Positions 4,401 to 27,014 of a DNA stretch of 52,611 bases are shown here, piece by piece (the stretch's first letter is position 1; the number at the start of each line of letters is the position of its first letter). The translations under genes were made by a program, and so were the position numbers. Below the pieces are notes generated by a model, which worked only from the letters and a program-made list of their open reading frames with translations, was not told the DNA's origin and made no database searches. Origin of the DNA: Bacteroidota bacterium (GTDB taxonomy: Bacteria > Bacteroidota > Bacteroidia > UBA8524); assembly GCA_016124735.1 (NCBI GenBank), contig WGMZ01000039.1, forward strand, positions 1 through 52,611. The letters run 5' to 3'.

Positions 4401-7400
4401 CATTGGAAGCGGAACGGGCACTACCTTTGACTACACCCCTTCTGTCATCTACTTCACAAGCTCACCAAGCACAAGAGGAAATATCACGGTAAAGCCGGTG
4501 GCCTCAGAAAATATTGCCGTTACAACAACAGGGCGCTCTCTTACCTATTACTGGAAAACCAGCTCAACAGGCTTCACATTGGGATCTGCCGTGGTGGTGC
4601 AAAATTATTATTACACTTCGGGGGATGTAGTGACAGGAACCGGAATCACCGAAGGTGGATATGTTCCTGCTAAATTCGATATTGGTGCCGGAGCCTGGGT
4701 GACGGGCACTACAAGCGACGTAGATACCATCACCAAACGCATCCAATTTACAGGAGCAAGCTTTTCTGGTATTGACGGAGATTATACGGCGGGCGACAAC
4801 TCGCCGGTTAATCCATTTGGGGCGGTAACTATTTATTACAGTCGGGTGGATAATGGCTCCTGGTCCGATGTAAATACCTGGACCACTAATTCGGACCACA
4901 GCACGGTTTCTCCTCCGTCCACAGCACCAAATGCCAATTCCATCATCCGCATTGGCAATGGAACGAGTGTATTTCATACCATCAATATCGACTCAAGTAA
5001 CAGAGCAGCCGGAAGTCTGGTGATTTACCCGGGTTCCGTCCTGGACCTTAAACAAACAACGGGAAACGATTTCGGAGTAGTGGGCGGAACAAGTCTGGGT
5101 GGACATGGCCGAATACGCATGGACAGGAACGGAACGAGTTATGCATTCCCTGGCGGAGATTATGGCAATTTTCTGGAAAGCGGTGCGGGAGAAATTGAGT
5201 ACTACAACTCCACTACTTCCATTGTAACGCTTCCTACGGGAATCAGCGCCTACAATAAACTCATCATCAATGCAGAATCCACCGGCATCATTGAATTTCC
5301 GGCCCTGGATATAACGATTTACGACAGCCTTTTATTTACTTCCTCAAGTTCAGGTATCGTTTATATTAATGAAACCAACTCCTCTTTAGGCGACCTCGAT
5401 GTTCAGGGAGCCACTATCGTCTCGGGTGGAACAGTAGAACTTCGAAACTCGGGAAATTCGGCTACGAGAAATCTCACTTTTGAAGGCGACTTTCAGGTCG
5501 ATAGTGGGGCGGTCTTTCAGGTAGAGGCTGGAGGAACCAATCTGGTGCATACCATGAATTTTGCAGGAAGCCTCACCAATAACGGGACTTTCGATGCTTA
5601 CTATAACGACAACCATTACATCATCCTGCAATTTACCGGAGCAGATACCAGTTATTTCACCGGAACGCAATCCTCCGCCACAACCGATATTTTTGAGTTA
5701 AAGCTCAACAAAGGATCCGATTACTCATCCATGCTTGTGATGGATGTTGCGGGCACCCTCACTACCAAAACCAGTGGTTGGCTCACCTTACAAAATGGGA
5801 TGTTTCGCTTTGCGAAATCGGGCGGAAGTCTGACCGTTTCAGATGCGAATGCCACATTCTCGATCCCGGCGACTTGTGCCCTTTCCATCAATCATTCCAC
5901 CGCTTCCATGACGGTTGTCAAGAACAATAACAATGGTGCAGACCTCCTGCTCACGGGCAAGCTTGAAGTAATGAATGGCACCATGTATATCGGGAATACT
6001 GCCGATAATAAGAACAACGACATTATCTACACCAGCACAGGTGTTCCCAAACTTATTTTAAGTGGTGGGACTCTCAATGTAGCTGGACAAATACGGAGAA
6101 GCACCAGTGCTACCACCGGTTCACTGTACTACAACCAGAGCGGAAGCAGTATCGTAAAGATATTCGGATTAAATAACGACAATACCCAAGGCATGCTTGA
6201 AGTTCTGAACAGCGGAAGCTATTTCGGGATGCACGGCACATCCAAGTTGTATATTGCTGGCGGTGGGTCTTCCAGCTTTTCGGATCTCTATCTCAACCCA
6301 ACAACCTATTCTGTAGATGGAGGCACCGTCTATTTCTCTCCTTTGAGCCCGGTAGGGACAAGTCAAACTTATACCTGTAATTCTCAGGCACCGCTGTACA
6401 ATTTGGAAATTACACCAATGGGCGCGCTCACAGCCAGCCTAACCTTAAACAGCCATTCGCTGACTCTGGGAAATAATTTGCTGATCAGCTCTTCTGCTTC
6501 GCTCAACACCAATAGCCTTGGGTTAACGATTGGCGGTCGCTTTACCAAATCCGGCACCTACACTACCGGAACCAGCACGGTGAAATTCACCGGGTCCTCT
6601 TCGGCTCTAGAAGGTGATTTCTCTTCTACAGCCATCTATCATCTAAAAGTAGATACCAACGCGGTACTTAGCCTGAGTGGAGCAAGTACTTCAGTAAAAG
6701 TGAGCTCCACGCTCACCATCTATCCGGGAGCCATCCTTAATGACAGCAGTCATCTTCTGAACATTACCGGCAATATGGTGAATTACGGACAACATAAAAG
6801 TCTGACGAATTCCTCTTCGAATACCTTGCAATTTGGCGGAACCTCTACACAAACTATCACGGGCACCGGTTCCTTCGGCAACCTGGTAGTGAATAATGGA
6901 AACTCGGTGAGTATGTCGAGCGCCATGCAAATCAACAACCAACTCACTCTGAGTAATGGGATTCTGGATATTGGTTCGAACCAATTGACATTGAATACTT
7001 CGGCAACCGTTAGCGGAACCTTCAATACCTCGAACAATATCAAATGCAATGGCGTTTTGAGCGATGGCGGCATTAAAAAACTTTGCAGTTCCGGGGCGAA
7101 CAATGTGCTCTTCCCTGTTGGATTGACGGGGAAATACACACCGGCCCGTATCAATATCACTTCTTCCAATGCTTCGGGAACGATTACCTTAAAGGTCATC
7201 AATGCGAAACACCCCTCAACCCGGCTGAGTGCCGACAGTCAATTGAACCTCTATTGGAAAGTAGACACGACAGGTTTTGATAGTTTAACTGTCACGCATA
7301 CCTATCAATACGTGACAGCTGACGTGACGGGTTCCGAATCTGATTATGTAACCGGTCGTTTTGTGAGTCCGAGTTGGACACCTTTATACGGTATAAGTGG

Positions 7401-10116
7401 TACAGTGGACACCTCCGCAAATACCGCCACGCTCAGCGGTGTTTCCTATATCAACGGAAGTTTCACGCTGGGCAATCCCAATGAATTTGGCTTGGGCAGC
7501 ACGTATTACAGTAGAAAGAGTTCGGGCTATTGGGATGATTTGGACATGTGGTCAACTACCGGACATACCGGCGCACCTTTGGACACCATTACCGACTTGC
7601 CCAATGGATCACCCGTAATTATTGCCACTGGCGACACCGTGACCATCAGCGGTAACTCCAAGCTGGCCGAGTCCATTACCCTCGATAGTGGTGCAGTACT
7701 CGATCTGGGGAATACCTTCGGGCATAACCTAGGTACGGTTTCTGGAGAAGGCAAATTGCGGATCAAAGCCACAACCAATAATCAGTTCATTTTCCCAGCC
7801 GGAACCTTTACTTCCTTTACCGGTAGCTCTGGAGGAATTATCGAATACTATGGATCGACGAATGGGGTCCTTCCCACTCAAAGCAGCTACCATGATATTC
7901 TCTTTAGCGATGGTGCCACCCGAACGATTCCGAATACCAACCTGGACATCAATGGGGATATTCAGATTGACGCTGGTGTGGTATCGAATTCCACCTATAA
8001 CAAAACCTTAAATGTTTATGGCGATTGGGTGAACAATGTTGGAGGGAGCGGCTTCGTGCCTGGCACCGGCACTGTTAATTTTGCTTCGGATACCGCTCAA
8101 TCCATCTCAGGAATTACCCGGTTCAACACACTTGAATTTAGCGGAGGAGGCGATAAGACCCTCCAGGATTCCATCAGCTTTGGAAATCAATTGGTGCTTA
8201 CCGGTGGTATTGTCTATTTAGGAAGCCATAACCTCATGGCGGATTCGGCTGCCACCAGCAGCGGAAGTCCTTCGGCTTCGGCGATGATTGTGCAAAATGG
8301 CAGTGGTCGCGTTGTGAAGCGCTATATTAGCACGAGCCCGGCTTTTGTCTTTCCTTTGGGCGAAGAAACCGGGACCACAGAATACTCACCCGTCACGCTT
8401 TCCTTTAACAGCGGAACATTTGGGTCGTTGGCCATTGTTTCTGTTACATTGAAAGACAGTGCCAGCACCGTCTGCGCTGGTGGAAATCACTATATCAGCA
8501 GATACTGGACCTTCAGCAGTTCTGGAATCACCAGCTTCTCTGCGAACATTACTGCGCAATATGTGCAAGCGGATGTGGTTGGGACCGAATCCAATATTGC
8601 CGCGCGCATGTCGCGTCCTTCACAAACCTGTTTGAATGGCTCTTATGTAAACACGAGCGCCAATACCATGAGCATCACCTGCGCGGTTTTGAATACCCTT
8701 ACCGGCGGAGAACCCCCTGCTGCGCAGCCAACGGTGCAACCAAGCGATCTGTTTTTTACCCAGATTGGATCTGGAAGTATGACCCTGACCTGGACCCAGG
8801 GAAATGGCCACGGACGCATTGTATTTGTTAGGTCGGGCGCAGCCGTAGATGCCAAACCTGTCGATTATACCGAATATACCGCAGACACCAATTTGAGCGG
8901 AAGTCCGCAGAACCTCAACAACAGCTATGTGGTGTATCAGGGTGCCGACAGCAGTTTCACACTCAGTGGACTCTCACCTGCTTCGTATTATTATTTCGCG
9001 ATATACGAATACACCAATCAGGGCACGGAACGGGATTACCTTCTTACCGATTCGCTGACCGGATCGATGAATACCAATGCGGCAGAACCAAGCTCAGCAG
9101 CAACGGCGCTTACATTTGATCGAATCCAGCATAATTCAATCCGGCTGAATGTTTCCGGTGGCAGCGGAAGTAAGCGCATTATTGTTGCCAGAAAATCATC
9201 TGCAGTAACTGCCGCCCCGGTAGATCGGCAGGTCTACACCGCTTCTTCAACCATGGGATCCGGAGATGATTTGGGCAATAGCCAGTATGTGGTGTATTCC
9301 GGAGCCGGCGATTCAGTGACTGTTCGAGGCCTGGACCAAAACGTCTACTACCATTTCACGGTATTTGAATCGAATGGTTCAGATACGACGACCAATTACC
9401 TTACTTCCTCAACCTTAGCCGATAGCCAGCATACCTATCTCTTGCTCGAAGTCACTGTTTTCCTGGAAGGAGGTTATGCAAATGGTGCGTTGAGCACCAC
9501 CCTTCAATCCTATATACCAGCTGCGCAACCTTATACTGTCCCGCCTTTTAATTACACGGATGTCGGGAGTATTCAATCTGTACCAACAGACAGTCTGGTC
9601 GATTGGGTGATGCTCGAGTTGAGGAATGCAGACACAGCTTCCAACGCCACCTCTTCAACTATTCAGGGACGAGCGGTGGGCTTTATTCGTCCGGATGGAA
9701 CTGTAGATGATACCATTGCAGCGCCGGGAGTGGTAGTTCGAACCACCGCGCCTGGAAATTTCTTTGTGGTGGTGCACCATCGAACGCATATCTCTGTGAT
9801 GTCATCCTCCCATTTAACAGCCCCTGACACCGTCAATCAATTCTATAGCTACGATTTTACCGATGCCGTAAGTAAGGCCTATGGCACCGATGCATTGATT
9901 TCGCTTGGAAATGGCAAATGGGGCATGTATTCGGGAAGTGCCGAAAATAGTGCCTCTTCTGAAAAGATTGATGCCAACGACCGGCAAGCCGTTTGGAATG
10001 CACGCAATCAGTCCGGCTACAATGAAACCGACGTGAACCTGGATGGCTATGTGAATTCAGCGGATCGATCGATATGCTGGAATAACCGGAATATTGTTTC
10101 TCAGGTTCCGCAGTGA
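1471..10116 (+). CDS. Giant secreted beta-helix repeat protein with Fn3-like and dockerin-like C-terminal modules
   Basis: A 2881-residue exported protein, probably a surface or matrix adhesin. Residues 1-20 are a signal peptide (MRRPLLLTLGILLCSTLSA). Residues about 25-232 are a Gly/Ser/Thr-rich beta-sandwich-like head. Three super-repeats follow, starting near residues 235, 1119 and 2010, each opening with a Y-Y/T-x-S-G-x-W-x-x-x-x-x-W-T/S-T motif. Next comes a parallel beta-helix-like array rich in GTLxL, SVLDL and GNLxV strands, ending in a YW(K/T) segment near 1025, 1928 and 2343. The first two are about 885-890 residues and the third about 400. Two Fn3-like domains follow (about 2424-2530 and 2544-2650), then a conserved C-terminal module (about 2660-2881). 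The end carries Ca-binding, dockerin-like loops (DANDRQAVWN near 2834; DVNLDGYVNSADRS near 2855). No standard T9SS C-terminal domain is seen. Cysteines are few. The ligand is unknown. Confidence 0.85.
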   Translation: MRRPLLLTLGILLCSTLSALNISLVGSSSTLTDNNTTFSLSKPSGTNAGDLILIQAVYTVSTGAITAPTGFSTYVNTGSNAFSYALFYRFADGTEGSTFDVTSNSTRDWIGAVAVYRNVNPGAPFEDINYTFNAMANGATSFDAPAISSSSGTGVHVVFGAAKHTGTPSSISAPSGMTGITDTLGTGRMAMVAEQDIQSTGSTGAKTFTFSGAQGGGSDNNRRYFTVSLILRPLTILYTYQSGNFDSTTTWTTDPSVSTLSPSGGLAPLTGDSLVIKNGRTITLSADKSNTSFGLLLEEGSVLDLQTYTLDGLNSISGSGKLRSSGSSGSVAYFPTAQSNADFLDSGGGILEYYCSTSVMLNTSVTNCQELILRRESSGTTQYTLASNLSIYGDLTITGSNSGVARLTIGNNTTARSLSIGGTASVSSGCEWTVGTSNANHTVFIGANFSNYGMVGFTNQTSPSYGTASTTGTVTLTFTGAANNSFYCYGPTNLYRMIVDKGSDQTHVLSVESDDSTHLKLFGPNDQGNNPSSDPNPTVLKALSLVNGTLKLNSNIYLPCLTTGGDDFFIPQNAALWVNGAYIVSTTGSGSNTGITVVGKLRLSSGSIETGSSTGLLYRVNGEIVVEGGTLHAAQFREADPGTPHNGSYTQSGGTVTIDGTTEDNGHARFSLPNTGCTFDMSAGTLQIKYPVTRQGTAVNLINIGAASQNFSVTGGEIQAVSNKTGVAARMIISGTLSTLTLSKSGGGDFIADAALATSTSLHMEQGSPLLDMNGYGLSLSGDLEIDSAATLKMNSGTLSFSGATKSLFTVNGTLSGNLQDFYINKSDSLELAGSTDTLIVLGTFSLVDGVLADGGKTLDLRGNLVLSGEHSGTGQLLLSTATSRTVSGSGNGIVTNLSFDAPSDASATLSCNLKLQGELNFIGSTRRVLDFGAYALTIDSFASIINPGSNRFVRFNGLQSAGGMTKIYTSDSFYFPIGSGTGTTFDYTPSVIYFTSSPSTRGNITVKPVASENIAVTTTGRSLTYYWKTSSTGFTLGSAVVVQNYYYTSGDVVTGTGITEGGYVPAKFDIGAGAWVTGTTSDVDTITKRIQFTGASFSGIDGDYTAGDNSPVNPFGAVTIYYSRVDNGSWSDVNTWTTNSDHSTVSPPSTAPNANSIIRIGNGTSVFHTINIDSSNRAAGSLVIYPGSVLDLKQTTGNDFGVVGGTSLGGHGRIRMDRNGTSYAFPGGDYGNFLESGAGEIEYYNSTTSIVTLPTGISAYNKLIINAESTGIIEFPALDITIYDSLLFTSSSSGIVYINETNSSLGDLDVQGATIVSGGTVELRNSGNSATRNLTFEGDFQVDSGAVFQVEAGGTNLVHTMNFAGSLTNNGTFDAYYNDNHYIILQFTGADTSYFTGTQSSATTDIFELKLNKGSDYSSMLVMDVAGTLTTKTSGWLTLQNGMFRFAKSGGSLTVSDANATFSIPATCALSINHSTASMTVVKNNNNGADLLLTGKLEVMNGTMYIGNTADNKNNDIIYTSTGVPKLILSGGTLNVAGQIRRSTSATTGSLYYNQSGSSIVKIFGLNNDNTQGMLEVLNSGSYFGMHGTSKLYIAGGGSSSFSDLYLNPTTYSVDGGTVYFSPLSPVGTSQTYTCNSQAPLYNLEITPMGALTASLTLNSHSLTLGNNLLISSSASLNTNSLGLTIGGRFTKSGTYTTGTSTVKFTGSSSALEGDFSSTAIYHLKVDTNAVLSLSGASTSVKVSSTLTIYPGAILNDSSHLLNITGNMVNYGQHKSLTNSSSNTLQFGGTSTQTITGTGSFGNLVVNNGNSVSMSSAMQINNQLTLSNGILDIGSNQLTLNTSATVSGTFNTSNNIKCNGVLSDGGIKKLCSSGANNVLFPVGLTGKYTPARINITSSNASGTITLKVINAKHPSTRLSADSQLNLYWKVDTTGFDSLTVTHTYQYVTADVTGSESDYVTGRFVSPSWTPLYGISGTVDTSANTATLSGVSYINGSFTLGNPNEFGLGSTYYSRKSSGYWDDLDMWSTTGHTGAPLDTITDLPNGSPVIIATGDTVTISGNSKLAESITLDSGAVLDLGNTFGHNLGTVSGEGKLRIKATTNNQFIFPAGTFTSFTGSSGGIIEYYGSTNGVLPTQSSYHDILFSDGATRTIPNTNLDINGDIQIDAGVVSNSTYNKTLNVYGDWVNNVGGSGFVPGTGTVNFASDTAQSISGITRFNTLEFSGGGDKTLQDSISFGNQLVLTGGIVYLGSHNLMADSAATSSGSPSASAMIVQNGSGRVVKRYISTSPAFVFPLGEETGTTEYSPVTLSFNSGTFGSLAIVSVTLKDSASTVCAGGNHYISRYWTFSSSGITSFSANITAQYVQADVVGTESNIAARMSRPSQTCLNGSYVNTSANTMSITCAVLNTLTGGEPPAAQPTVQPSDLFFTQIGSGSMTLTWTQGNGHGRIVFVRSGAAVDAKPVDYTEYTADTNLSGSPQNLNNSYVVYQGADSSFTLSGLSPASYYYFAIYEYTNQGTERDYLLTDSLTGSMNTNAAEPSSAATALTFDRIQHNSIRLNVSGGSGSKRIIVARKSSAVTAAPVDRQVYTASSTMGSGDDLGNSQYVVYSGAGDSVTVRGLDQNVYYHFTVFESNGSDTTTNYLTSSTLADSQHTYLLLEVTVFLEGGYANGALSTTLQSYIPAAQPYTVPPFNYTDVGSIQSVPTDSLVDWVMLELRNADTASNATSSTIQGRAVGFIRPDGTVDDTIAAPGVVVRTTAPGNFFVVVHHRTHISVMSSSHLTAPDTVNQFYSYDFTDAVSKAYGTDALISLGNGKWGMYSGSAENSASSEKIDANDRQAVWNARNQSGYNETDVNLDGYVNSADRSICWNNRNIVSQVPQ

Positions 10117-10508: not shown

Positions 10509-13500
10509 CTAAAGCTTAACTTGTTTCTTCTGTCTGCGTTCATCCCATTTGTACAGGGCACGCATATAACTTGGCAACACAATGAGCAGCATCGGCAAAC
10601 CAGCCACAAAACCACCAATAACCGCGACTGCCAAAGGCTGCTGCATCTGTGCTCCCAAACCAATTCCCAAAGCCAAAGGCATCAGGGCCAATATGGCTCC
10701 GATAGCCGTCATCAACTTCGGACGAATCCTCAAAGCGATGGCATAGTTTACTGCTTCATCCACATCGCCCGATTCTTTCATGTTCTGCTTGAACTGATGC
10801 ACCGTGAATATGGCATTCTCCGCAATAATCCCGACAATCATAATGATGCCCGTATAACTGCTCACATTAAGCGGAATCCCAACCAGATACAAAGCCAGAA
10901 TACATCCTCCAATTCCCATTACCGAAACAAATAAGACAAGGAAACTGATCAACCATTCCTTGAAAAGGAACATCAGCACGGCCATCACAAACAGAATGGC
11001 CAGCGATAGAATTAAAAGGAGCTCCTGAAAAGATTTCTGCTGTCCGGCATAGGCTCCGCCGTAAGCAATATGATCTGCGAAAGGAAGTTTTTCCTTGAAT
11101 TGTTTCTTAATATCAGCAATGGCTCCACCCAAATCGCGGTTTTCAAGACGGGCTGTCAAAACAATGACTGACTTTAAATCTTCCCTCCGCTGTTCAATTT
11201 CTCCAGGTACTACCTTCACGTCGCAGAAGAAGGACAAGGGCCGGGTAGTGCCATTCGGCAGGAATATCAACTGATGCTTGAGCTTGTCGACGTTGTTCTC
11301 ATCAAAGTCGATGAAGCGAAGCAAAATCCGGCGCATCTGCTCTCCATCCTGAAAATCGCCAATCTGCAATCCACCCGTCATTGCTGCCTGAGCAGGTGTA
11401 GGAATCGACTGGTTGGAATTCATTCCCAATGGAACACCGCCGGTATAGGCCGTGAGTTGGGTCTGGAAATTAGTCAACGAAATATTGTATTGACTCAATT
11501 TCAATTGATCGGGAATAAAGACCACTGAAGGTCCGGCGGTAACCAAACCATTATTGATGTCCACCAATCCGGGAATCTGCTCCATCACCTGTTCTGCCTC
11601 CTGGGCCTGTCGTTTCAGAGTGGTATAATCATTACCGAAAATCTTGATTTCAATCGGCTGGGGTGTGCTCATCAAATCGCCCAGAAGGTCGGAGATCCGT
11701 TGTCCGAATGATATTTCTTCCATCGCCGGCACTTTGGCTTCCACCTCTGTTCGCAATTCAGCAATAACTTCCTCAGTGGTTTTCTTTCTATCCTTTTTCA
11801 GCTGAATAGAATAGTCGCCAATATTCGAAGGGTCGCTTCGGAATGCCATGTGAATTCCTGTACGTCTCGAATAGGATTCCACCTCCGGATGCTTTTGGAT
11901 GACTTTTTCAATCTCCTTGCACAGCCGATCCGTCTCGTCGATGGACGTTCCGGGAGGCGATATATAATCCAACACGATACTGCCCTCATCTAAATCGGGT
12001 AAAAACCCTGTTTCCAGTTTCCCGGAAGCCCAGTAGGCAGAAGCACCAATGGCCAGTACAAACAGGGAAGCAAACACTGGTTTCTTGAAGAACCAGCTGA
12101 GCCAGCGAAGCTTTCGCATGGCTTCTTGTGCATGCGCCACATGGTCAATCGGTGCCTTGATAGACTTTCTGTAACCTATAATAAGATGAAGTACCGGAAG
12201 CAGCAGCCAGGTGACTAAAAAGGAAGTCACCATGGTTAGCTGCATCGTATCTGAGAGTTCTTTAAAAAATGTACCAGCCAATCCACTCATCAGGCGAAAT
12301 GGGAAGTGGATCACGATAGTCGACAAGGAGGAGCCCACCATAGCCGGGAACAGCCCTTTGATGGATTCACTGACCACCTGAAAACGGTTCTTTTCAGGAT
12401 ATTCTTCGTGCGTTCGGTAAATCTGTTCGATGATGACGATGGCATCATCTATAATCAATCCAATGGATGCCGCAATTGCTCCAAGGGACATTACATTGAT
12501 GGTAATTCCTGCCTGATGAATCACCAATAAGGTAAACGCCAGCGTAATAGGAATAGTAATCAAAACCACTGCACTGGCGCGCCAGGACCGGAGGAAAATA
12601 ATCATCACCACAATGGCCAAAAACAAGCCTTCGTAAATGGTTTTGATTACACTATGAATACTGTCGCCAACAAAGGCGCTCTGGTTATAATAGGGTTTGA
12701 GAACATATCCCTTGGGTAGCAGTTTTCTTACCTCATCTGCCTTGGTTTCCACCTCTTTGGCAAAGTCGATGAGATTGATGCCTGGTTGCTTCACCAGGTC
12801 GATCAACACTGCATTGTTTCCATTGGCATTGATGACTAAAAATTCCTTTTGATTCTGTATCTCCACCTTTGCCACGTCTTTAACATGGACAATGCGAACC
12901 CCATCGTTCTTGATGATGATATCTCCAATCTCATCCACACTGCTGATGCGGGTATCGGTGAGCGATAAATACAGGCGGTTGTAATCGTCGAGGCTCCCAT
13001 TGGAAAGCACAAAATTGTTATTGCTAAACGCATTGATGATGGTGCTTGGCGTAATGCCAATGGCAGTCATCTTCACCGGGTCGGGGATAATGACATATTC
13101 CTTGGCCCGTCCGCCCCGCACCACCACATTCGAAATGCCTTTTACCTGCGCAAAGACAGGACGTATGGTGAGGTTCGCTTCGTCTTTCAACGCAATCTGA
13201 CTGGCATTGGTGTTTTCAAGGGTATAGCCGTAAACCGGGAACAAGGATTGGTTCATGGCCTCAATGGAGAAATTCACGCCGGGAGGCAGGAAATTCTTGA
13301 TCTCATTGATCCGGCTTTCTATCTGAATCTTTTGTGCATAGGTATTGATGCCCCAGTCGGAGAACACATCAATGGTGCAGGTTCCTCTGCTCGTGCTGCT
13401 TTTGACCACCGAAACGCCCTGTACCCGCTTCACTGCACTTTCCACCGGCTTGGTTACGATGGTCATCATGCGATCGACCGGAAGCTGACCCGCGTCGATA

Positions 13501-13649
13501 ATAATCGTTACCCTCGGGAAAAGCACCTCGGGAAAGAGGTTGGTGGGCATGCGCGTGTAGGAATAAATTCCTGAAAGCAGCAGCAGTATGCCAATGAAGA
13601 GGATTGGCTTGGTGAAAACCTGAAAGTAATTCTTTGCTCTACTCGCCAT
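10509..13649 (-). CDS. RND efflux pump inner-membrane transporter (AcrB/MMPL superfamily)
   Basis: A 1046-residue proton-driven exporter forming the inner-membrane part of a tripartite pump. The N-terminus is a membrane segment followed by FPEVLFPRVTI, typical of RND pumps. The fourth-helix region reads IGLIIDDAIVIIE with Asp401-Asp402, the proton-relay pair of HAE-type (drug) pumps. Metal (HME/CusA) pumps usually have a different arrangement, so a hydrophobic or amphiphilic substrate is more likely than a heavy metal. In the second half, where AcrB has the proton-relay Lys (AKNAI), this protein has GIIAENAIF with Glu944. Length is normal for the family. It is the last gene of the PepSY-TolC-MFP-RND operon, overlaps the MFP gene by 11 bases, and is followed by a good terminator. 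The substrate cannot be told from sequence. Confidence 0.92.
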   Translation of the reverse strand: MASRAKNYFQVFTKPILFIGILLLLSGIYSYTRMPTNLFPEVLFPRVTIIIDAGQLPVDRMMTIVTKPVESAVKRVQGVSVVKSSTSRGTCTIDVFSDWGINTYAQKIQIESRINEIKNFLPPGVNFSIEAMNQSLFPVYGYTLENTNASQIALKDEANLTIRPVFAQVKGISNVVVRGGRAKEYVIIPDPVKMTAIGITPSTIINAFSNNNFVLSNGSLDDYNRLYLSLTDTRISSVDEIGDIIIKNDGVRIVHVKDVAKVEIQNQKEFLVINANGNNAVLIDLVKQPGINLIDFAKEVETKADEVRKLLPKGYVLKPYYNQSAFVGDSIHSVIKTIYEGLFLAIVVMIIFLRSWRASAVVLITIPITLAFTLLVIHQAGITINVMSLGAIAASIGLIIDDAIVIIEQIYRTHEEYPEKNRFQVVSESIKGLFPAMVGSSLSTIVIHFPFRLMSGLAGTFFKELSDTMQLTMVTSFLVTWLLLPVLHLIIGYRKSIKAPIDHVAHAQEAMRKLRWLSWFFKKPVFASLFVLAIGASAYWASGKLETGFLPDLDEGSIVLDYISPPGTSIDETDRLCKEIEKVIQKHPEVESYSRRTGIHMAFRSDPSNIGDYSIQLKKDRKKTTEEVIAELRTEVEAKVPAMEEISFGQRISDLLGDLMSTPQPIEIKIFGNDYTTLKRQAQEAEQVMEQIPGLVDINNGLVTAGPSVVFIPDQLKLSQYNISLTNFQTQLTAYTGGVPLGMNSNQSIPTPAQAAMTGGLQIGDFQDGEQMRRILLRFIDFDENNVDKLKHQLIFLPNGTTRPLSFFCDVKVVPGEIEQRREDLKSVIVLTARLENRDLGGAIADIKKQFKEKLPFADHIAYGGAYAGQQKSFQELLLILSLAILFVMAVLMFLFKEWLISFLVLFVSVMGIGGCILALYLVGIPLNVSSYTGIIMIVGIIAENAIFTVHQFKQNMKESGDVDEAVNYAIALRIRPKLMTAIGAILALMPLALGIGLGAQMQQPLAVAVIGGFVAGLPMLLIVLPSYMRALYKWDERRQKKQVKL

Positions 13650-14568
13650 GATCTTCCCCTACTATTTGCACCAATGCTGTATCGGCTAAGCCATAACTCC
13701 CGTTCACAATGATTCGGTCTGTACTGTCGAAATGCGGTTGCAAAATCTCAATCTCCTGATGATTTTTATTTCCGGTCCGCACTGCTACCTGAACTGCTGT
13801 GCTGTCGTTCAAGAGCTTCATGACCCAGAAATGCTGCATCCGTTCATCGCTCTGAACACAGGTAATTGGTATTATCTGTTGGGTTTCGCCATTTCCCTTG
13901 TCGACCATTACAGTGACAATCAAATTTTCCGGAAGAAAGAGTGGTTCTACCGATTTGGCCAGGACTGACTGGGTTTGCGCAGTGATATTCATGCTGCTCA
14001 ATGGGGTTGAGATGATGGCTGAGTGAATGGAATTATCGGGTAGAATAATTCGGCAATGTTTTCCGCGATTGACAAACTTCCTGAACTCAAAAGGCACATT
14101 CACCTGAAAAGCTAAATCATTGCTTTCCGAGATGGTGCAAAGCTGGGTGCCTTCCAACACATAGTCTCCTATTTGTTGTTTATCGAGGGTGCTCACCACC
14201 CCTGAAGCTTGCGCTTTCACTTCAATTACTCCGAAAGAAGTCAGGGAGGTATCGAGCTGATTCAAATCATTCCCCAGCGCTCTTTTCTCCTTGCTCTCCA
14301 GCGTATATAAGATATCTCCCTCTTTGACTTTGTCGCCAAGACGAATATTGACATGCGTTATAAAAGCAGGGAAAGGGGCATTAATGACGTTCCTTTTCAA
14401 ATAAAGTGTGCTCGCAAACAACTCAAGCTCATCGTGGATACTCCCCTTATGCACATGTGTAATCTGCACATTTGTTTTCGGCACGAGCTCGGATTCTTCC
14501 TCCTTTTTCGGACTACCGCATGCATATAAAAGGAACACTGCGCCGGCTGCCATACATAGTTTTTTCAT
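13639..14568 (-). CDS. RND periplasmic adaptor (membrane-fusion) lipoprotein
   Basis: A 309-residue adaptor linking the RND pump to the TolC channel. The start is the ATG at 14568, giving a lipoprotein signal MKKLCMAAGAVFLLYACG with the lipobox Cys at about residue 17. The frame runs on to 14655, but that extension only overlaps the tolC gene end. After the lipobox comes an acidic stretch (KKEEESE). A biotinyl-lipoyl-like half-motif follows: FITHVNIRLGDKVKEGDILY, and later KAQASGVVSTLDKQQIGDYV. The coiled-coil hairpin between them is very short (about 35 residues), as in many Bacteroidota adaptors. It sits 10 bases after the tolC stop and overlaps the pump gene by 11 bases, so the two are probably translated together. 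Confidence 0.88.
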   Translation of the reverse strand: MKKLCMAAGAVFLLYACGSPKKEEESELVPKTNVQITHVHKGSIHDELELFASTLYLKRNVINAPFPAFITHVNIRLGDKVKEGDILYTLESKEKRALGNDLNQLDTSLTSFGVIEVKAQASGVVSTLDKQQIGDYVLEGTQLCTISESNDLAFQVNVPFEFRKFVNRGKHCRIILPDNSIHSAIISTPLSSMNITAQTQSVLAKSVEPLFLPENLIVTVMVDKGNGETQQIIPITCVQSDERMQHFWVMKLLNDSTAVQVAVRTGNKNHQEIEILQPHFDSTDRIIVNGSYGLADTALVQIVGEDHGE

Positions 14569-14578
14569 TTCTTCCGAT

Positions 14579-15868
14579 TTACCAATTCCAGTAATTGTAA
14601 GTGTTGACCAGTAATTGCCGGTTGGTTTCCAGGATATAATAATCGCGTTTGGCAACGGTCATGTTTTTTAATGTGGTGATATAGATAAGGATGGACATTT
14701 GCCCCTGCATGATTTGTTTTTTGTAGGCCTCGAGCAAAGCGCTGTATTCCTTCAACTGATTTTCTGCAATGGTCTTTCTGTTGTCGTACGAGTTAAGTTC
14801 AGTAAGTATTTTCTGCTTTCTCACATTATTCTGCTTTAGGAAATTGTCACGGTAAAATGCCACCGCCTCTAATTGAAGCTCTGTCTTTTCCTGCATGATG
14901 GACTTCTGATTGCCATCGTAAAAATTCCAGGTAAGATTGAGTCCGGCACTCATACCAAATCGGTTAGGGATGGTCGGGGCGTATACCGCATTTAATCCGG
15001 CATTGGAATACACATTTACCTGAGGCTTGTATTTTGTTTCAAAGACCTGCTGCGTGCTAATTAAAGTCAGACTGTCGAGTTTGTACTTCAACAGATAAGA
15101 AGATTGAGCTGGAGCTTGCTCCGGCTTTAAATCAAGATGCAAGTCGGGAAGGAGAACAAAGCTTGTATCATCTAAACCGCACAAAACATTGAGGTCCATG
15201 AGGTCTCGTTTATAGGTGGCCTTGTAGGTGGCATACAATCCTCTGTTGGTATGGTATTCAATGGTCAGCAGGCGGAGATCCGACTGTTTCAGAATACTTC
15301 CTTCCACGAGCTTCTCTACGATATCCATCTGCTCTTTGATGATGGATAACATGGAGTCGGCGAACTGCATCTGATTTTTATCCAACAGGCAAAGAAGGTA
15401 TTGATCGGTTACAAACTTCTCAATATCGTGCTCGGTCAATTGAATGGTATTCTCATTGATCTTTTGCCTGACACGGGCCTGACCTGCATAGGCTTCATAA
15501 CGGCCATTATTGAACAGAGGCTGAGAATAATTGATGAGTCCCTGATACAGGCCTCCATTCGAAGCTGCTAAATCATACCCAACATATTTATCCGCTACGT
15601 ATGCGTTAGGATCCAAGCGGGCTGTACCCTGGTCTTTTGAAATTATGGGCGCAAACATATACCCACCCGTTACCCCTATCTGGGCTTTGGTATACTGCGC
15701 CCGTAATCTTTCTGCCTCCAACTCATTAGCTTGAGCTTGTTGCTTGTTGTCAAATAAAAGGGGACTGTTTTCTTTCGCTTTTCTGATATAATCATTCAGG
15801 ACATCCTGCGCCTGAATTTTTTCTGCAGCACAGCACAAAAGCAAAAGAACTAGAAACACTTTTTGCAT
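14579..15868 (-). CDS. TolC-family outer-membrane efflux protein
   Basis: A 429-residue outer-membrane channel of the TolC/OEP family. The signal peptide is MQKVFLVLLLLCCAAEKIQAQ. Long heptad-rich helices with Gln/Glu/Lys-rich faces (for example DNKQQAQANELEAERLRAQY near the start and NVRKQKILTELNSY near the end) alternate with barrel-like strands such as GMSAGLNLTWNFYDGN. The two-fold OEP repeat is visible: each half has a strand pair followed by a long helix pair. The gene sits 7 bases after the PepSY-like lipoprotein gene and 10 before the adaptor, all on the minus strand. It supplies the exit duct of the pump encoded just downstream. Confidence 0.9.
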   Translation of the reverse strand: MQKVFLVLLLLCCAAEKIQAQDVLNDYIRKAKENSPLLFDNKQQAQANELEAERLRAQYTKAQIGVTGGYMFAPIISKDQGTARLDPNAYVADKYVGYDLAASNGGLYQGLINYSQPLFNNGRYEAYAGQARVRQKINENTIQLTEHDIEKFVTDQYLLCLLDKNQMQFADSMLSIIKEQMDIVEKLVEGSILKQSDLRLLTIEYHTNRGLYATYKATYKRDLMDLNVLCGLDDTSFVLLPDLHLDLKPEQAPAQSSYLLKYKLDSLTLISTQQVFETKYKPQVNVYSNAGLNAVYAPTIPNRFGMSAGLNLTWNFYDGNQKSIMQEKTELQLEAVAFYRDNFLKQNNVRKQKILTELNSYDNRKTIAENQLKEYSALLEAYKKQIMQGQMSILIYITTLKNMTVAKRDYYILETNRQLLVNTYNYWNW

Positions 15869-15875
15869 GGCTGAA

Positions 15876-16340
15876 TCAGTCGTTCTCCTTTTCGGATTCG
15901 GTCTCTTTGCTCTGCTTCTTAATGAGTTTACCTTCCGGTGTAATGACTACTTCGAGTTCGGATGGTCCCATCTCAACCACGAATTCGTAAAATTTTCCTT
16001 CCGGCGTTTCCGACATTTCAGCCTCCTCAATCGTATAACCCACCAATTCCTGTTCGATGGTGTTTTTTACCGGCTCAGGGATATCCGTAATTTCGATATC
16101 GTATTCTGTCTCTTTCCACGGCCCGTCGTTTAAGAAGTTTGCGGAATATTCCTCTCCATCCAGAGTGAATTCTGCTTCCCATTCAGAATCGCCTTCTTTG
16201 TCCCATTTCACATTTTTAGCGTTGGGATACATTTGGGTAAAGGCCGAATGCACTTCTTTTGGAACTACATTTCCCGAACCGGAACAGGCTGAAAAGCCCG
16301 CCAAGGCCAGAGCATAGCTGGCTATTGTCCATGTTTTCAT
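15876..16340 (-). CDS. PepSY-like domain lipoprotein, first gene of the efflux operon
   Basis: A 154-residue periplasmic lipoprotein (signal MKTWTIASYALALAGFSAC, lipobox Cys19). Two PepSY-like repeats are visible. The first holds VHSAFTQMYPNAKNVKWDKEG and WEAEFTLDGEEYSANF; the second holds VKNTIEQELVGYTIEEAEM and YEFVVEMG. The family (putative beta-lactamase-inhibitor-like, PepSY-like) is common in Bacteroidota next to two-component systems and is thought to modulate envelope signalling; the exact role is unknown. The protein is strikingly acidic, with a Glu/Lys-rich tail. The gene leads the TolC-MFP-RND operon and is preceded by the same direct-repeat motif that precedes the response-regulator gene, so it is probably the first target of that regulator. 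Confidence 0.8.
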   Translation of the reverse strand: MKTWTIASYALALAGFSACSGSGNVVPKEVHSAFTQMYPNAKNVKWDKEGDSEWEAEFTLDGEEYSANFLNDGPWKETEYDIEITDIPEPVKNTIEQELVGYTIEEAEMSETPEGKFYEFVVEMGPSELEVVITPEGKLIKKQSKETESEKEND

Positions 16341-16375: not shown

Positions 16376-16409
16376 CAAAACTGCAGGACGATTTAGAAGA
16401 AATTTAGAA
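16376..16409 (-). promoter_or_regulatory. Predicted response-regulator operator and promoter of the PepSY-efflux operon
   Basis: On the plus strand TTTAGAA (16392-16398) and TTTAGAA (16403-16409) form a direct repeat with an 11-base period, the spacing used by OmpR/PhoB-type dimers. The flanking bases match the copy at 18377-18396 over 20 identical positions. On the minus strand a CAGTTTTG box (16383-16376, resembling the Bacteroidota -7 element TAnnTTTG) follows after exactly 6 bases, as in the other copy. The PepSY start codon is 36 bases further on. Binding by the neighbouring regulator is inference. Confidence 0.6.
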
Positions 16410-16421
16410 TTCTGAAGTCGC

Positions 16422-17687
16422 TCAGAATTTTACGACAAAATGATGCAGATTATTGGAAAACGAATAGTCAATCTCCCACTGATTCAGGTCAGCAATCATC
16501 TTTATAATTGCCAGACCCAACCCGCTGCTGTTCGCATGCTGAGAGGGATTTCCAAAGCGCTTAAACAGGCCGTCGGCATCCAAAGCGCTTGCTTTGCCAG
16601 TATTGGTAATTTGCAGATGATTTTGTTTAGTGGAAATAGAAATGCTTCCGTCCTGCACATTGTGGCGAATGGCATTGAGCAAAAGGTTATTGATCAGCAC
16701 TTCGGCCAGAGACCGGTTGGAATGAACCTGAATCGTCTCATCCAACTCGGCTTCAACCTGGATATTCTTCTCTTCGGCCTGCTCAGAAAAATAAGGAAGC
16801 ACTTCTTCCAACATGGCATTGAGATTCAAATCTTCTTTATCAGCAAATTGCTGGTTTTCCATTTTTGCCAACAAGAGGAGATTCTTATTCAATCTGCTCA
16901 ATCGGGCTACTGCATCGTACAATTGCTGAACGATTTCCGCTTGGTTTTCCGTTAGATCCGGACTTTGCAAAAGCAGATCGAGCTTGGATTGAAAAACTGC
17001 CAGGGGCGTCTGCAATTCATGGGCTGCATTCTCTGTAAATTCTTTTTGAGATTGAAAAGCCCGAAGGTTTTGCCTGGTTAGTTTTTCTAGTGCCTTGTTA
17101 AGTTGCTGAAATTCCACCACACGGCTTTCCGAAAAATAAAAGGGTTCCTGCGAGGCAATATCAAAACTTTCCATCAAATCCAATGTTCGGTAAAATGGTT
17201 TCCAGATGATGGATGAAATGATTTTAGAAACCAATACAAAACCCACCAATAATACCATCAAGATGATGAGGTAGAGAATACCCGTGGTTTCTACTAAATC
17301 TTCCCACTCTACCAGATTCAGACGTATCATCAGGGTATAAGGAGCGCCTTCAATCTCCACATCAGAATACAAAACCCGGTAGGGTTCCAATTCCTTCGCC
17401 CCCGAATCGTAAAACTCTTGTTGGATGATGCTTTCCCGAACCTTGCTGACCGTATCCGACAAGATGCGAATATCACGGTTGAAGCGATTCCAGGTTGGAA
17501 CGTCCGAAGTGGTGAGAGTATTCAGGGCATCCTTAATGAAATCATCTTTTCGTAATTGAATGGCTTCATCTACATCATCGATGTATAATTTCCTGGAGAA
17601 CCAATAATAAGAAGGGGCACTCAGCAGCAGCAGCACAAATGCAGACACAATGTAATAGACCAGTGTTTTGTTGAGCAGCTTATTCAT
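16422..17687 (-). CDS. Two-component sensor histidine kinase (class I, OmpR-partner type)
   Basis: A 421-residue membrane sensor kinase. Membrane segments lie at about residues 6-28 and 135-158, enclosing a roughly 100-residue periplasmic sensor domain with no recognised fold. A HAMP-like linker follows. The phosphoacceptor helix reads FTENAAHELQTPL with His223. The ATPase part shows the N box (NNLLLNAIRHN) and a G2-type GLGLAIIKM. I chose the ATG at 17687 because it makes an ATGA overlap with the regulator stop; an ATG three codons upstream (17696) is equally in frame. It is co-transcribed with the OmpR-type regulator. Position before the PepSY-efflux operon suggests it senses envelope stress or an exported compound. 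Confidence 0.9.
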   Translation of the reverse strand: MNKLLNKTLVYYIVSAFVLLLLSAPSYYWFSRKLYIDDVDEAIQLRKDDFIKDALNTLTTSDVPTWNRFNRDIRILSDTVSKVRESIIQQEFYDSGAKELEPYRVLYSDVEIEGAPYTLMIRLNLVEWEDLVETTGILYLIILMVLLVGFVLVSKIISSIIWKPFYRTLDLMESFDIASQEPFYFSESRVVEFQQLNKALEKLTRQNLRAFQSQKEFTENAAHELQTPLAVFQSKLDLLLQSPDLTENQAEIVQQLYDAVARLSRLNKNLLLLAKMENQQFADKEDLNLNAMLEEVLPYFSEQAEEKNIQVEAELDETIQVHSNRSLAEVLINNLLLNAIRHNVQDGSISISTKQNHLQITNTGKASALDADGLFKRFGNPSQHANSSGLGLAIIKMIADLNQWEIDYSFSNNLHHFVVKF

Positions 17688-18358
17688 GATTCCCATTTAT
17701 ACCCCATTCCGTAGATGGTTTTAATGTATTCCTTGGCACCAGCTTCTGCAAGCTTCTTTTTTAAATTCTTGACATGGGCATAGACAAAACCGTGATTATC
17801 GAGCATGTCGGCCATGTCGCCTGACAGGTGCTCGGCCAATGCGCTTTTGGAGATGATGCGGTTTTTATTGCCAAGCAGAAAAAGGAGCAGGTCGAATTCT
17901 TTTTTTGTGAGAGGCAATGCCTTTTCATGCACCGAAACGGATTTGGCCAGCAGGTCGACTTCCAACTCGTTCACATGGATTTTATTGGTGGTACCAAAAT
18001 GTCTGCGGCGAATCACCGAATGGATTCGGGCACTCAACTCCGACATATGAAAAGGCTTGGGCAGGTAATCATCTGCGCCGATTTGCAGTCCTTTCACCTT
18101 GTCTTCAATAGAATTCCTGGCGGAGATAATGATGACTCCTTCCTGCTTATTTTGTGATTTAAGCGATTCCAATATTTTCAATCCATCGCCTCCGGGAAGC
18201 ATTAAATCCAGGAGTATGCAATCGTATTCGTAGATTTCAATTTTATCCGACGCTTCCAAAAAGGTAGCAGCAAACTCGCAACGGTAGTCTTCCTCTTTGA
18301 GGTAATCTGCCATGCTGTCGGCCAGCTCTTTCTCGTCTTCGATGATCAGAATCTTCAC
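17684..18358 (-). CDS. OmpR/PhoB-family response regulator
   Basis: A 224-residue DNA-binding response regulator. The receiver domain (1-120) has the acidic pair Glu7-Asp8, phosphoacceptor Asp51 (LLDLMLPGGDG), and Lys101 in DDYLPKPF. The winged helix (about 126-224) has the family landmarks LTKKEFDLLLFLLGN and TIYGMGYKWES. The start codon is GTG at 18358 (MKILIIEDE), preceded by AAG-rich sequence. Its stop overlaps the kinase start in ATGA. An 11-bp-period direct repeat sits 19 bases upstream of the start and recurs before the PepSY-efflux operon, which points to autoregulation and control of the pump. Confidence 0.92.
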   Translation of the reverse strand: MKILIIEDEKELADSMADYLKEEDYRCEFAATFLEASDKIEIYEYDCILLDLMLPGGDGLKILESLKSQNKQEGVIIISARNSIEDKVKGLQIGADDYLPKPFHMSELSARIHSVIRRRHFGTTNKIHVNELEVDLLAKSVSVHEKALPLTKKEFDLLLFLLGNKNRIISKSALAEHLSGDMADMLDNHGFVYAHVKNLKKKLAEAGAKEYIKTIYGMGYKWES

Positions 18359-18362
18359 CTTA

Positions 18363-18396
18363 CAAAGTCACCAATGGATTTAGAAGAAATTTAGAA
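18363..18396 (-). promoter_or_regulatory. Predicted autoregulatory operator and promoter of the two-component operon
   Basis: TTTAGAA (18379-18385) and TTTAGAA (18390-18396) repeat with an 11-base period. The 20 bases 18377-18396 are identical to 16390-16409. On the minus strand a TGACTTTG box (18370-18363) follows after 6 bases, the same gap as at the other site, and the GTG start is 4 bases further on, so the leader would be very short. A motif just upstream of the -7 box fits activation by a bound dimer at the -33 position. Confidence 0.6.
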
Positions 18397-24400: not shown

Positions 24401-25243
24401 ATGAATAAACTGAGTCTGGTGGCATTAATTGGAATGTTCCTTTTCAATTCCTGCGAAGAAGAGCCACTGCCTATTCCAATGACTGACCCGGTGGCTCCAT
24501 TGGTAGACACCACATACGTTAACAGCCCTGTCTCGGCAAAGCAACACAAAGTCGCCATGTTCGAAGAATTTACCGGGGTACGTTGTCCGAACTGTCCGCA
24601 AGGCCATGCCGTAATGAAAGCCATGGCTGCTACTTACGGGGATCAACTGGTAATGGTTTCAATCCACGACAGCTCTCAGTTCAATCAGGCAGCTCCATTT
24701 AAAGGAGATGTGCATCTGAGCACCTTTTGGGCCAAGCAGATTTTCACGATGATTTCCAAACCCAACGGCATTCCATATGGAATTGTAGACCGTTTGGCAG
24801 GAGACAATGTTTCTTCTCTTTGGGATAATCTGGTGGCTACCCGCCTGCAAACGCCTTCCGTTGCAAATGTAGAATTGAAAATCATCAGTTTCGATGAATC
24901 AACGCATGAATTACGTTACGAAGTTAAATTCGAACTGACCGAAGACGTCAATGAACCTCTATTCTTTAGCACGGCTATCTCTCAGGACAGTATCATCGGA
25001 AAACAGGAAGATGGTAGCATTGTCATTGACGATTATGTGCATAACCATATCCTTCGGGATATGCCCCAGTTTTCCACTACGCTGAACCCAACAAACAACC
25101 CTCCCGCCACCAAAGGACGTGTATTCCTCAAACAATACATCTACTTCATGGACCCCGATTGGGTTGTTGAACACTGCAAGTTGATTGCCTATATCCACAA
25201 ACCTGTAGAGATATTGCAAGCTGCGGAGGTTCATATCAAATAA
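24401..25243 (+). CDS. Omp28-related lipoprotein, copy 1
   Basis: A 280-residue lipoprotein of the Omp28 family. Signal MNKLSLVALIGMFLFNSC ends in a lipobox at Cys18, followed by acidic EEEP; acidic residues there act as a surface-export signal in Bacteroidota. The domain opens with a thioredoxin-like motif EEFTGVRCPNCPQGHAV (CPNC), then MVSIHDSSQF and ELRYEVKFELTED. It is clearly paralogous to the protein at 26178-27014, with long shared blocks (for example NSPVSAKQ, VRCPNCP, VSIHDSSQF, NHILRDMPQF). It ends 3 bases before xerD and so is probably translated from the same mRNA. Function unknown; the CxxC suggests a redox or fold-derived role. Confidence 0.85.
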   Translation: MNKLSLVALIGMFLFNSCEEEPLPIPMTDPVAPLVDTTYVNSPVSAKQHKVAMFEEFTGVRCPNCPQGHAVMKAMAATYGDQLVMVSIHDSSQFNQAAPFKGDVHLSTFWAKQIFTMISKPNGIPYGIVDRLAGDNVSSLWDNLVATRLQTPSVANVELKIISFDESTHELRYEVKFELTEDVNEPLFFSTAISQDSIIGKQEDGSIVIDDYVHNHILRDMPQFSTTLNPTNNPPATKGRVFLKQYIYFMDPDWVVEHCKLIAYIHKPVEILQAAEVHIK

Positions 25244-25246
25244 ACC

Positions 25247-26149
25247 ATGTGGGAATCCCATATTCGTGGCTTTAGAAATTACCTGCGACTGGAAAAATCG
25301 TTGTCAGGGAATTCGCTGGATGCCTACCTCCATGATGTCGTTAAACTAACACAGTTCCTGGAAGATCAGGAAATAACGAAAGCTCCAGCAGAAATCAGTA
25401 GCCATGAATTACGTCACTTTCTGAGATGGATTGCTGAGATGGGCCTGTCATCATCTACACAGGCCAGAATCCTTTCGGGAGTTCGCGCATTCTATAAATA
25501 TCAGTTGATGGAGGACCTCATCCATGAAGATCCGACGGAATTACTCGAAGGACCAAAACTGGGCAGAAAACTACCTGATACTCTGGATTATTCGGAGATT
25601 GAAAAACTCCTGAATGCGATCGACCGAAGCACACCCGAGGGAGAAAGAAACAGAGCGATGCTCGAAGTGCTTTATGGCTGTGGCTTGCGCGTATCCGAGC
25701 TCATCAATCTTCAGATATCCAATATTTTTCCGGAAGAACATTTTGTTCGGGTGGTGGGCAAAGGCGATAAAGAAAGGTTGATTCCCATAGGAACCTCCGC
25801 TCTGAAACATATCATGATTTACCTGCAGCTGGTGAGGGTGCATATTCAGCCTCAGGCAGATTCTGTTGACACCCTTTTCCTGAATAACCGGGGCCGCGGA
25901 CTTAGTCGCGTGATGGTCTTTACCATCATTAAGAACCTGGCCAAACAGATTGGACTGAAAAAAAGTATCTCTCCACATACCTTCCGCCATTCCTTTGCCA
26001 CGCATTTAGTGGAAGGTGGAGCCGACTTGAGGGCTGTTCAGCAGATGCTCGGACATGAAAGTATCACCACCACAGAGATTTACACACACCTCGACCGGGA
26101 ATTCCTGAAAAATGTGGTGAACCGTTACCATCCGCGCTCCGGGAAGTAG
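25247..26149 (+). CDS. xerD: Tyrosine recombinase XerD (site-specific chromosome dimer resolution)
   Basis: A 300-residue tyrosine recombinase that, with XerC, resolves chromosome dimers at dif. The N-terminal SAM-like domain (1-95) includes FRNYLRLEKSLSGNSLDAYL and LSSSTQARILSGVRAFYKY. The catalytic set is complete: Arg148 in YGCGLRVSEL, Lys172 in GKGDKERL, His244 and Arg247 in SPHTFRHSFATH, His270 in LGHESI, and nucleophile Tyr279 in TTEIYTHLD. Length is normal for XerD. It starts 3 bases after an Omp28-type gene and is followed 28 bases later by a second one. Housekeeping XerD rather than an element integrase, since no element boundaries or other mobile genes are seen nearby. Confidence 0.93.
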   Translation: MWESHIRGFRNYLRLEKSLSGNSLDAYLHDVVKLTQFLEDQEITKAPAEISSHELRHFLRWIAEMGLSSSTQARILSGVRAFYKYQLMEDLIHEDPTELLEGPKLGRKLPDTLDYSEIEKLLNAIDRSTPEGERNRAMLEVLYGCGLRVSELINLQISNIFPEEHFVRVVGKGDKERLIPIGTSALKHIMIYLQLVRVHIQPQADSVDTLFLNNRGRGLSRVMVFTIIKNLAKQIGLKKSISPHTFRHSFATHLVEGGADLRAVQQMLGHESITTTEIYTHLDREFLKNVVNRYHPRSGK

Positions 26150-26177
26150 AATGAATCGTTTTGCTTAACTTGAACCT

Positions 26178-27014
26178 ATGAAATTTAACCTTCTGCTCGT
26201 CTTCAGTATTTCCATTTTCCTGTTCTCTTGCGAAGAAGACGAATTGCCGGTGACCTCCACTTCCAATCCCGCCTTATTGGACACCACCTATATGAATTCT
26301 CCTGTATCGGCAAAGCAGGATAAAAATGTTTTATTGGAGGAATATACCGGGGTTCGTTGTCCAAATTGTCCGCATGGGCATGAGGTTTTGAATACTCTTT
26401 TATCCGTTTATGGAAAGCAATTGACAATCGTTTCCATCCACGATAGCAGTCAGTTTTTGCAAGCAGTGCCCTTCAACGACATCAATCTCAGTACATCCTG
26501 GGCCAAACAAATTTTTACCATTTATTCGAAACCCGGAGGACTTCCTTATGCCATTATGGACCGTATGAACGGAAGTATAAACACCGGGCTTTGGGACAAT
26601 CAAGTATCAACAAGGTTGCAGATTTCATCCAGTTCTAATGTCGAAACCAAAATTTTAAGTTTTAATTCAAACACTCTTGAGCTTAGGTATGAAGTGAAAT
26701 TTGAATTGACAGAAGACATGAACGAAACCTTGGCTTTCAGAACAGTGATTACCGAAGACCGTTTGATTGGCAAGCAAGATACCGTTGGAAAAGTGCTCGA
26801 AAACTATGTTCAAAACCATATCCTCCGCGACATGCCTCAATTTGCTGAACCACTCAATCCAGGCAATAATCCACCTGCGCTTAAAGGCCGGGTATTCATT
26901 AAACAGTTCAGTTATACCCTGAAGCCTGACTGGAATATTAAAAATTGCCATTTAATAGCTTTCATCCACAAACCGGTTGAGGTATTACAAACGGCAGAAA
27001 TTCCCATTCAATAA
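26178..27014 (+). CDS. Omp28-related lipoprotein, copy 2
   Basis: A 278-residue paralogue of the lipoprotein at 24401-25243. The signal MKFNLLLVFSISIFLFSC ends in lipobox Cys18, followed by EEDE, a likely surface-export signal. The CPNC motif is kept (TGVRCPNCPHGHEV), as are VSIHDSSQF, STSWAKQIFT, LRYEVKFELTEDMNE and NHILRDMPQFAEPLNPGNNPPALKGR in shorter identical blocks. The two copies match along their whole length without large gaps, so one arose by duplication, with xerD now between them. It is followed by uvrB after 49 bases. Confidence 0.85.
   Translation: MKFNLLLVFSISIFLFSCEEDELPVTSTSNPALLDTTYMNSPVSAKQDKNVLLEEYTGVRCPNCPHGHEVLNTLLSVYGKQLTIVSIHDSSQFLQAVPFNDINLSTSWAKQIFTIYSKPGGLPYAIMDRMNGSINTGLWDNQVSTRLQISSSSNVETKILSFNSNTLELRYEVKFELTEDMNETLAFRTVITEDRLIGKQDTVGKVLENYVQNHILRDMPQFAEPLNPGNNPPALKGRVFIKQFSYTLKPDWNIKNCHLIAFIHKPVEVLQTAEIPIQ

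Follow-up and report, generated by a model that had tools for sequence, protein, structure and literature searches.

A 20-base operator conserved across the Bacteroidota, predicted to serve one sensor-regulator pair with envelope-maintenance targets

Two identical 20-mers were found in the window, i.e., the whole stretch of 52,611 nucleotides that was analyzed (contig WGMZ01000039.1 of a Bacteroidota bacterium), one ahead of a regulator-kinase operon and the other ahead of the adjoining efflux operon. Judging from sequence comparison, it is highly probable that the 20-mer is bound by the OmpR-type regulator whose gene lies between the two copies, and the bound regulator would activate its own operon as well as the neighboring envelope operon. 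The two-component system is of a familiar kind, but the operator and its local regulon are new, and neither the connection with the PorY family nor, in relatives, the apparent mobility of the circuit as a cassette was expected. A literature search found no description of this operator.

The regulator-kinase locus and its two candidate operators

The relevant features of the window, all on the minus strand, are as follows.

17684-18358, minus strand: OmpR/PhoB-type response regulator; GTG start, probably leaderless
16422-17696, minus strand: sensor histidine kinase, NCBIfam NF052314 'PorY family' (461.8 bits, cut-off 350)
15876-16340, minus strand: PepSY-like protein (PF11396), with a signal sequence and Cys19 in a possible lipobox (FSAC)
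14579-15868, minus strand: TolC-type outer-membrane efflux protein (PF02321, OEP)
13639-14568, minus strand: membrane-fusion lipoprotein; the ATG at 14568 is a likelier start than the listed TTG at 14655
10509-13649, minus strand: RND permease (ACR_tran), under the cut-offs of the CusA/CzcA and multidrug subfamilies alike
18377-18396, minus strand: operator A (TTCTAAATTTCTTCTAAATC), predicted autoregulatory site ahead of the regulator-kinase operon
16390-16409, minus strand: operator B (the same 20-mer), ahead of the PepSY-efflux operon; the kinase stop codon lies 12 bases earlier
18363-18370, minus strand: -7-type box TGACTTTG, 5/6 matches to TAnnTTTG, 6 bases past operator A
16376-16383, minus strand: -7-type box CAGTTTTG, 5/6 matches to TAnnTTTG, 6 bases past operator B

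The regulator is of the OmpR/PhoB type by its domains, with a receiver (PF00072, 95.6 bits) and a Trans_reg_C winged helix (PF00486, 62.7 bits). It scored under the cut-offs of the PmrA/BasR equivalog (NF007928; 165.2 bits, cut-off 330), the Bacteroidota PhoB equivalog (NF053854; 156.9 bits, cut-off 270) and the BaeR model (154 bits, cut-off 380), and in sequence comparison with the PDB it was closest to Thermotoga DrrD (1kgs), followed by BasR. The kinase gene overlaps the regulator gene, and the PepSY-like, TolC-type, membrane-fusion and RND permease genes follow one another on one strand with short gaps or overlaps. The PepSY-like protein exceeded the gathering score of its family (45.3 against 28.3 bits), while the permease stayed below the cut-off of the CusA/CzcA heavy-metal pump model TIGR00914 (467.8 against 701 bits), and any substrate assigned to the pump is presumptive.

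On the forward strand both 20-mers read GATTTAGAAGAAATTTAGAA, with TTTAGAA twice in each copy at an 11-base period; on the coding strand this amounts to two half-sites, TTCTAAAT, of the same period. A repeat search of the window extended the two-copy repeat to 23 bases at 96% identity. The regulator promoter runs from its -7-type box through TAAG directly to the GTG, which is separated from operator A by 18 bases; 49 bases separate operator B from the ATG of the PepSY-like gene. The initial annotation had described two identical 20-mers with the doubled TTTAGAA, a TTTG-ending box exactly 6 bases past each, and distances of 19 and about 50 bases to the two genes, and our comparison agrees on every point, the last two figures matching the 18 and 49 intervening bases. 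It had also held that many unrelated copies across the genome would speak against an operator, and it was indeed found that the exact 19-mer TTCTAAATTTCTTCTAAAT occurs at these two places only in the 3,114,812 bases of the organism's own genome.

Looser matching added little. The scan of the own genome for TTCTAAATTTCTTCTAAAT gave one further site, with 3 mismatches, and among the best 28 extra sites scored in the 3-mismatch search none combined a high score with a well-placed -7 box. Within the window, 10 matches at up to 3 mismatches were obtained against a chance mean of 9.9, which is uninformative, so only the exact match counts there. The one further site in the own genome, TTCCAAATTTCTTCAAATT, is weaker (17.8 bits) and lies at positions 130264-130282 of contig C12 (G000:C12), just ahead of a possible start codon (ATGAAAGTTGCGCTGATT); no -7 box was found at the required offset. 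As a separate observation, an imperfect hairpin, ATTCTGAGCGACTTCAGAAT, at window positions 16409-16428 overlaps the kinase stop codon and reaches operator B; its arms resemble extra half-sites (TTCTGAG and TTCAGAA, 11 bp apart), and it might act as a weak terminator or as an accessory binding site.

Conservation, promoter geometry and the predicted binder

A first set of 80 loci with relatives of the kinase was fetched from one-genome-per-species data. With few exceptions, a regulator gene lies ahead of the kinase gene in these loci, and an initial scan located sites of period 11 in two positions, namely before the regulator and directly past the kinase. The position matrix (AATTCWRAATTTCTTCWRAATYG), built from 81 loci encoding the orthologous kinase, corresponds to a coding-strand consensus of TTCWRAAT-N3-TTCWRAAT with the same 11-bp period. 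In these loci, scores above the threshold of 14 bits were reached by 52 of 75 regulator promoters and by 57 of 81 promoters just past the kinase gene, but by none of 1560 first-order Markov shuffles; the random-position control was higher (4%), since its positions were drawn from the same loci. When the matrix was kept fixed and applied to a second set of 80 further loci from a different genome sample (78 after removal of two duplicates), 25 of 77 regulator promoters and 23 of 78 places past the kinase scored above the threshold, and 39 of the 78 loci carried either site. Conservation ahead of orthologous regulators and of the post-kinase gene, on which the initial proposal depended, is indeed seen across many Bacteroidota families. 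It is to be noted that the operator footprint is absent or weak in many orthologous loci, no more than half of the second set having one site or the other, that in several families of this set the site has drifted to TTCAGTTTTNCTTCAAAAT, and that some paralogous kinase-regulator pairs are without the operator.

The position of the site relative to the promoter is equally constrained. Of the 37 regulator promoters with a box, 27 have the best TAnnTTTG match at +6 past the 23-base matrix; among the other promoters the offset is +5 in 43 of 45, whereas the offsets in shuffles were evenly spread (binomial p <1e-28). The spacing between operator and box, which the initial annotation had noted to be equal at the two window sites, is thus constant to one base between distant families, and the boxes, including both of those in the window, are those of Bacteroidota primary-sigma promoters, i.e., TAnnTTTG -7 elements at a fixed position. 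Of 45 unique sites, 33 have the start codon of the regulator at +17 or +18. Transcription is expected to begin about 5 to 7 bases past the -7 box; since the start codon sits where transcription should begin, the regulator mRNA is probably leaderless. Lastly, the operator occupies the -33 region, where the consensus TTG is absent. Considering this absence together with the fixed spacing, class II activation by the operator-bound regulator is the most likely mode of action.

The circuit would then operate in the following manner. The adjacent PorY-family kinase, presumably in response to envelope damage, would phosphorylate the OmpR-type regulator, which would bind as a head-to-tail dimer to the two TTCWRAAT half-sites. 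As the operator replaces the -33 element at one fixed spacing from the -7 box, binding would activate transcription. Operator A would thereby drive the regulator-kinase operon in a positive feedback, through a probably leaderless mRNA, and operator B would drive the neighboring envelope operon, which here is PepSY-TolC-MFP-RND.

The same position, overlapping the expected -33 region, would also suit repression, in that the regulator, phosphorylated or unphosphorylated, could block polymerase at both promoters and so exert negative autoregulation. Sites for repressors, however, usually tolerate movement, whereas here the spacing to the -7 box does not vary by more than one base between distant families; moreover, a -33 place that holds an operator instead of the consensus TTG is, from general knowledge, what would be expected of activator-dependent promoters. 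We therefore regard repression as unlikely and favor activation.

As to the protein that binds, direct repeats with an 11-bp period are the signature of OmpR/PhoB-type regulators, and both the geometry of the sites and their conservation fit the predicted binding to half-sites repeated in direct orientation every ~11 bp. Across the loci, the recognition helix, [FV][IV]YAH[IVM]KNLKKKL, is nearly invariant. Residue 192, at the start of this helix, was the most informative of 224 regulator columns for an operator base: at position 5 of the half-site, regulators with valine had 40 A and 8 G, and those with isoleucine 0 A and 21 G. On the tree, this covariation amounted to 4 supported independent pairs and 0 contrary ones, with a median p of 0.125, which is not significant; the correlation is therefore suggestive only.

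Genome-wide scans likewise connected the operator with the kinase. The strict site occurred 16 times in 11 of 296 Bacteroidota genomes, against 4 occurrences of the reversed-pattern control, and the kinase family was present in 10 of these 11 genomes compared with 70 of the 296 overall (Fisher p ~3e-6). When the TTTG box was also required, 12 sites were found in 8 of 16 kinase-bearing genomes and 0 with the reversed pattern; judged from their coordinates, each of the 12 is located no more than ~10 kb from the kinase gene, so the regulon appears to be mostly local. Scans at two mismatches were near noise. The search for the operator near TTTG boxes in the genome and its relatives, which the initial annotation had recommended, thus returned strict copies that co-occur with the kinase gene.

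If the 20-mer instead served another regulator, such as PorX or an ECF sigma factor of the T9SS cascade, its strict copies would not be expected at the regulator-kinase locus, nor with the 11-bp direct repeats of the OmpR/PhoB kind, and 77 of the 78 sampled kinases of the NF052314 family (second set) adjoin an OmpR-type regulator. We consider it very improbable, even though the kinase scores above the PorY family cut-off, a PorX homologue (CheY-PglZ, 517 aa) is encoded elsewhere in the genome (G000:C12:171786-172364), and PorX is phosphorylated by PorY in Porphyromonas gingivalis (PMC4800418). Recent duplication or chance, without a regulatory role, might be entertained for an AT-rich sequence in which degenerate, 3-mismatch matches in the window are at chance level, but merits almost no credence, since the same two places are conserved in distant Bacteroidota with different flanks and target genes.

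Predicted targets and possible cassette mobility in relatives

The first gene past the kinase, or past extra copies of the operator in the same loci, varies by lineage. The types encountered are OMP_b-brl_3 receptors, PAP2 phosphatases (some weakly LpxE-like), Omp85 proteins, PepSY-like proteins, sulfatase-fold membrane transferases, OEP-led efflux operons, DgkA, DUF347 and EamA; for the window, PepSY and RND efflux together make up the predicted output. The transferase, DgkA and PAP2 are biochemically coherent as enzymes of lipid A or phospholipid head-group remodeling, and this coherence points to envelope maintenance as the common theme of the predicted targets. The circuit initially claimed, consisting of kinase, regulator, autoregulation and a PepSY-efflux target, is essentially upheld: its two operator places are conserved at fixed spacing, but the targets differ between lineages, and PepSY-efflux, being one among several, does not define the system. 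The suggestion that the PepSY protein may feed back on the pump or the sensor is a weaker, conjectural part of that claim. The membership of the kinase in the PorY family and the probable leaderlessness of the regulator mRNA had gone unnoticed in the initial annotation. HtrA/DegP was at one point a candidate target in Chitinophagaceae and was dropped, the operator ahead of it being weak in most such loci.

Six loci that belong to distant families (L033, L037, L053, L058, L060 and L065) share a block of ~3.6 kb (~5246-8850), 83-93% identical, which holds exactly both operators, the regulator, the kinase and an Omp85 gene. Its left edge is GTTAGGTGCAAG in all six and its right edge carries CACCTAACAG in five, four of which have a long inverted repeat past it. 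The circuit is thus bounded by integron-like cassette ends (GTTAGGTG ... CACCTAAC), and edges of this kind, RYYYAAC and GTTRRRY, are characteristic of integron gene cassettes. In L033 several such cassette-like units stand in a row, and a tyrosine recombinase resembling integron integrases lies just upstream in L037 and L053 and further upstream in L065. Against NF040815, the recombinases of L053 and L065 scored above the cut-off and that of L037 below; none of the three reached the TIGR02249 IntI cut-off, and no IntI above the cut-off was found in two such genomes. A strict attC scan yielded only one site (L037), because its pairing rule did not consider the outer repeat as part of the next cassette; support for the cassette claim comes from the homology boundaries and the repeats. 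At the window's own locus, a search for cassette ends found none. The accessible part of one report describes an integron-borne, regulated class C beta-lactamase (PMC7148499), a possible precedent for a regulated cassette.

Relation to PorX/PorY and other envelope systems

In P. gingivalis, the PorY kinase gene is unlinked to that of its partner PorX (PMC8050853; PMC4800418), and PorX/PorY are reported as not autoregulated (PMC8050853). The window resembles this system in its NF052314 kinase, the only PorY-family kinase found in the genome, and in the PorX homologue. It differs in that the T9SS system would call for a PorX-partnered kinase outside any operon with another response regulator, whereas the window's kinase gene forms an operon with that of an OmpR-type regulator, under a promoter with a predicted autoregulatory site. 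As nearly all sampled family members adjoin an OmpR-type regulator, the T9SS function implied by the family name need not apply to the window's kinase, although some cross-talk with PorX may occur. The sole sampled exception, L240, is a possible parallel to the orphan PorY. We tentatively propose, while leaning slightly toward doubt, that the PorY family was ancestrally the sensor of a phylum-wide envelope-stress circuit that acts locally, through an OmpR-type regulator and an operator of its own, that the T9SS control by PorY-PorX in P. gingivalis is a later rewiring, and that the circuit is portable, moving in some Bacteroidota as an integron-type gene cassette that comprises all of its parts, i.e., the two operators, the regulator, the kinase and the Omp85 target.

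PmrA/BasR of Enterobacteria is similar in being an OmpR-type regulator with a tandem 11-bp direct-repeat box. PmrA controls eptA and dgkA, and the predicted targets in relatives of the window likewise include lipid-modifying transferases, DgkA and PAP2 phosphatases. The window's regulator nonetheless reached only 165 of 330 bits for PmrA, its half-site is TTCWRAAT in a Bacteroidota -7/-33 promoter, and the targets of the circuit also include Omp85, OMP_b-brl_3 and PepSY-efflux. The envelope-stress systems CpxAR and BaeSR share with it the local kinase-regulator pair and the efflux output, but have a different box, and the regulator is below the BaeR cut-off (154 of 380 bits). In Riemerella anatipestifer, the OmpR-type regulator and kinase RAYM_RS09735/RAYM_RS09740, named PhoP/PhoR by its authors, are under one promoter and conserved in Flavobacteriaceae; the mutant has lowered chaperones, a lipoprotein and TonB receptors, and the accessible part of that report does not describe an operator (PMC5399024). 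The likeness to this pair is one of description, and any orthology with it is conjectural.

Envelope-stress signaling in Bacteroidota is poorly mapped, and with the operator the regulon of a two-component system present in many of these bacteria becomes open to direct testing. The finding also advises caution with kinases named 'PorY family, T9SS', most of which are partnered by an OmpR-type regulator that has envelope targets, and it turns the origin of PorX/PorY into a question that can be tested.

Two other regions of the window deserve mention. At 24401-27014, paralogous genes for Omp28-domain, lipoprotein-like proteins (24401-25243 and 26178-27014) flank a gene for a XerD-type tyrosine recombinase (25247-26149). 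At 1471-10116, a repetitive, secreted-looking protein of 2881 residues is encoded, which may be a T9SS cargo, since the organism has a PorX homologue.
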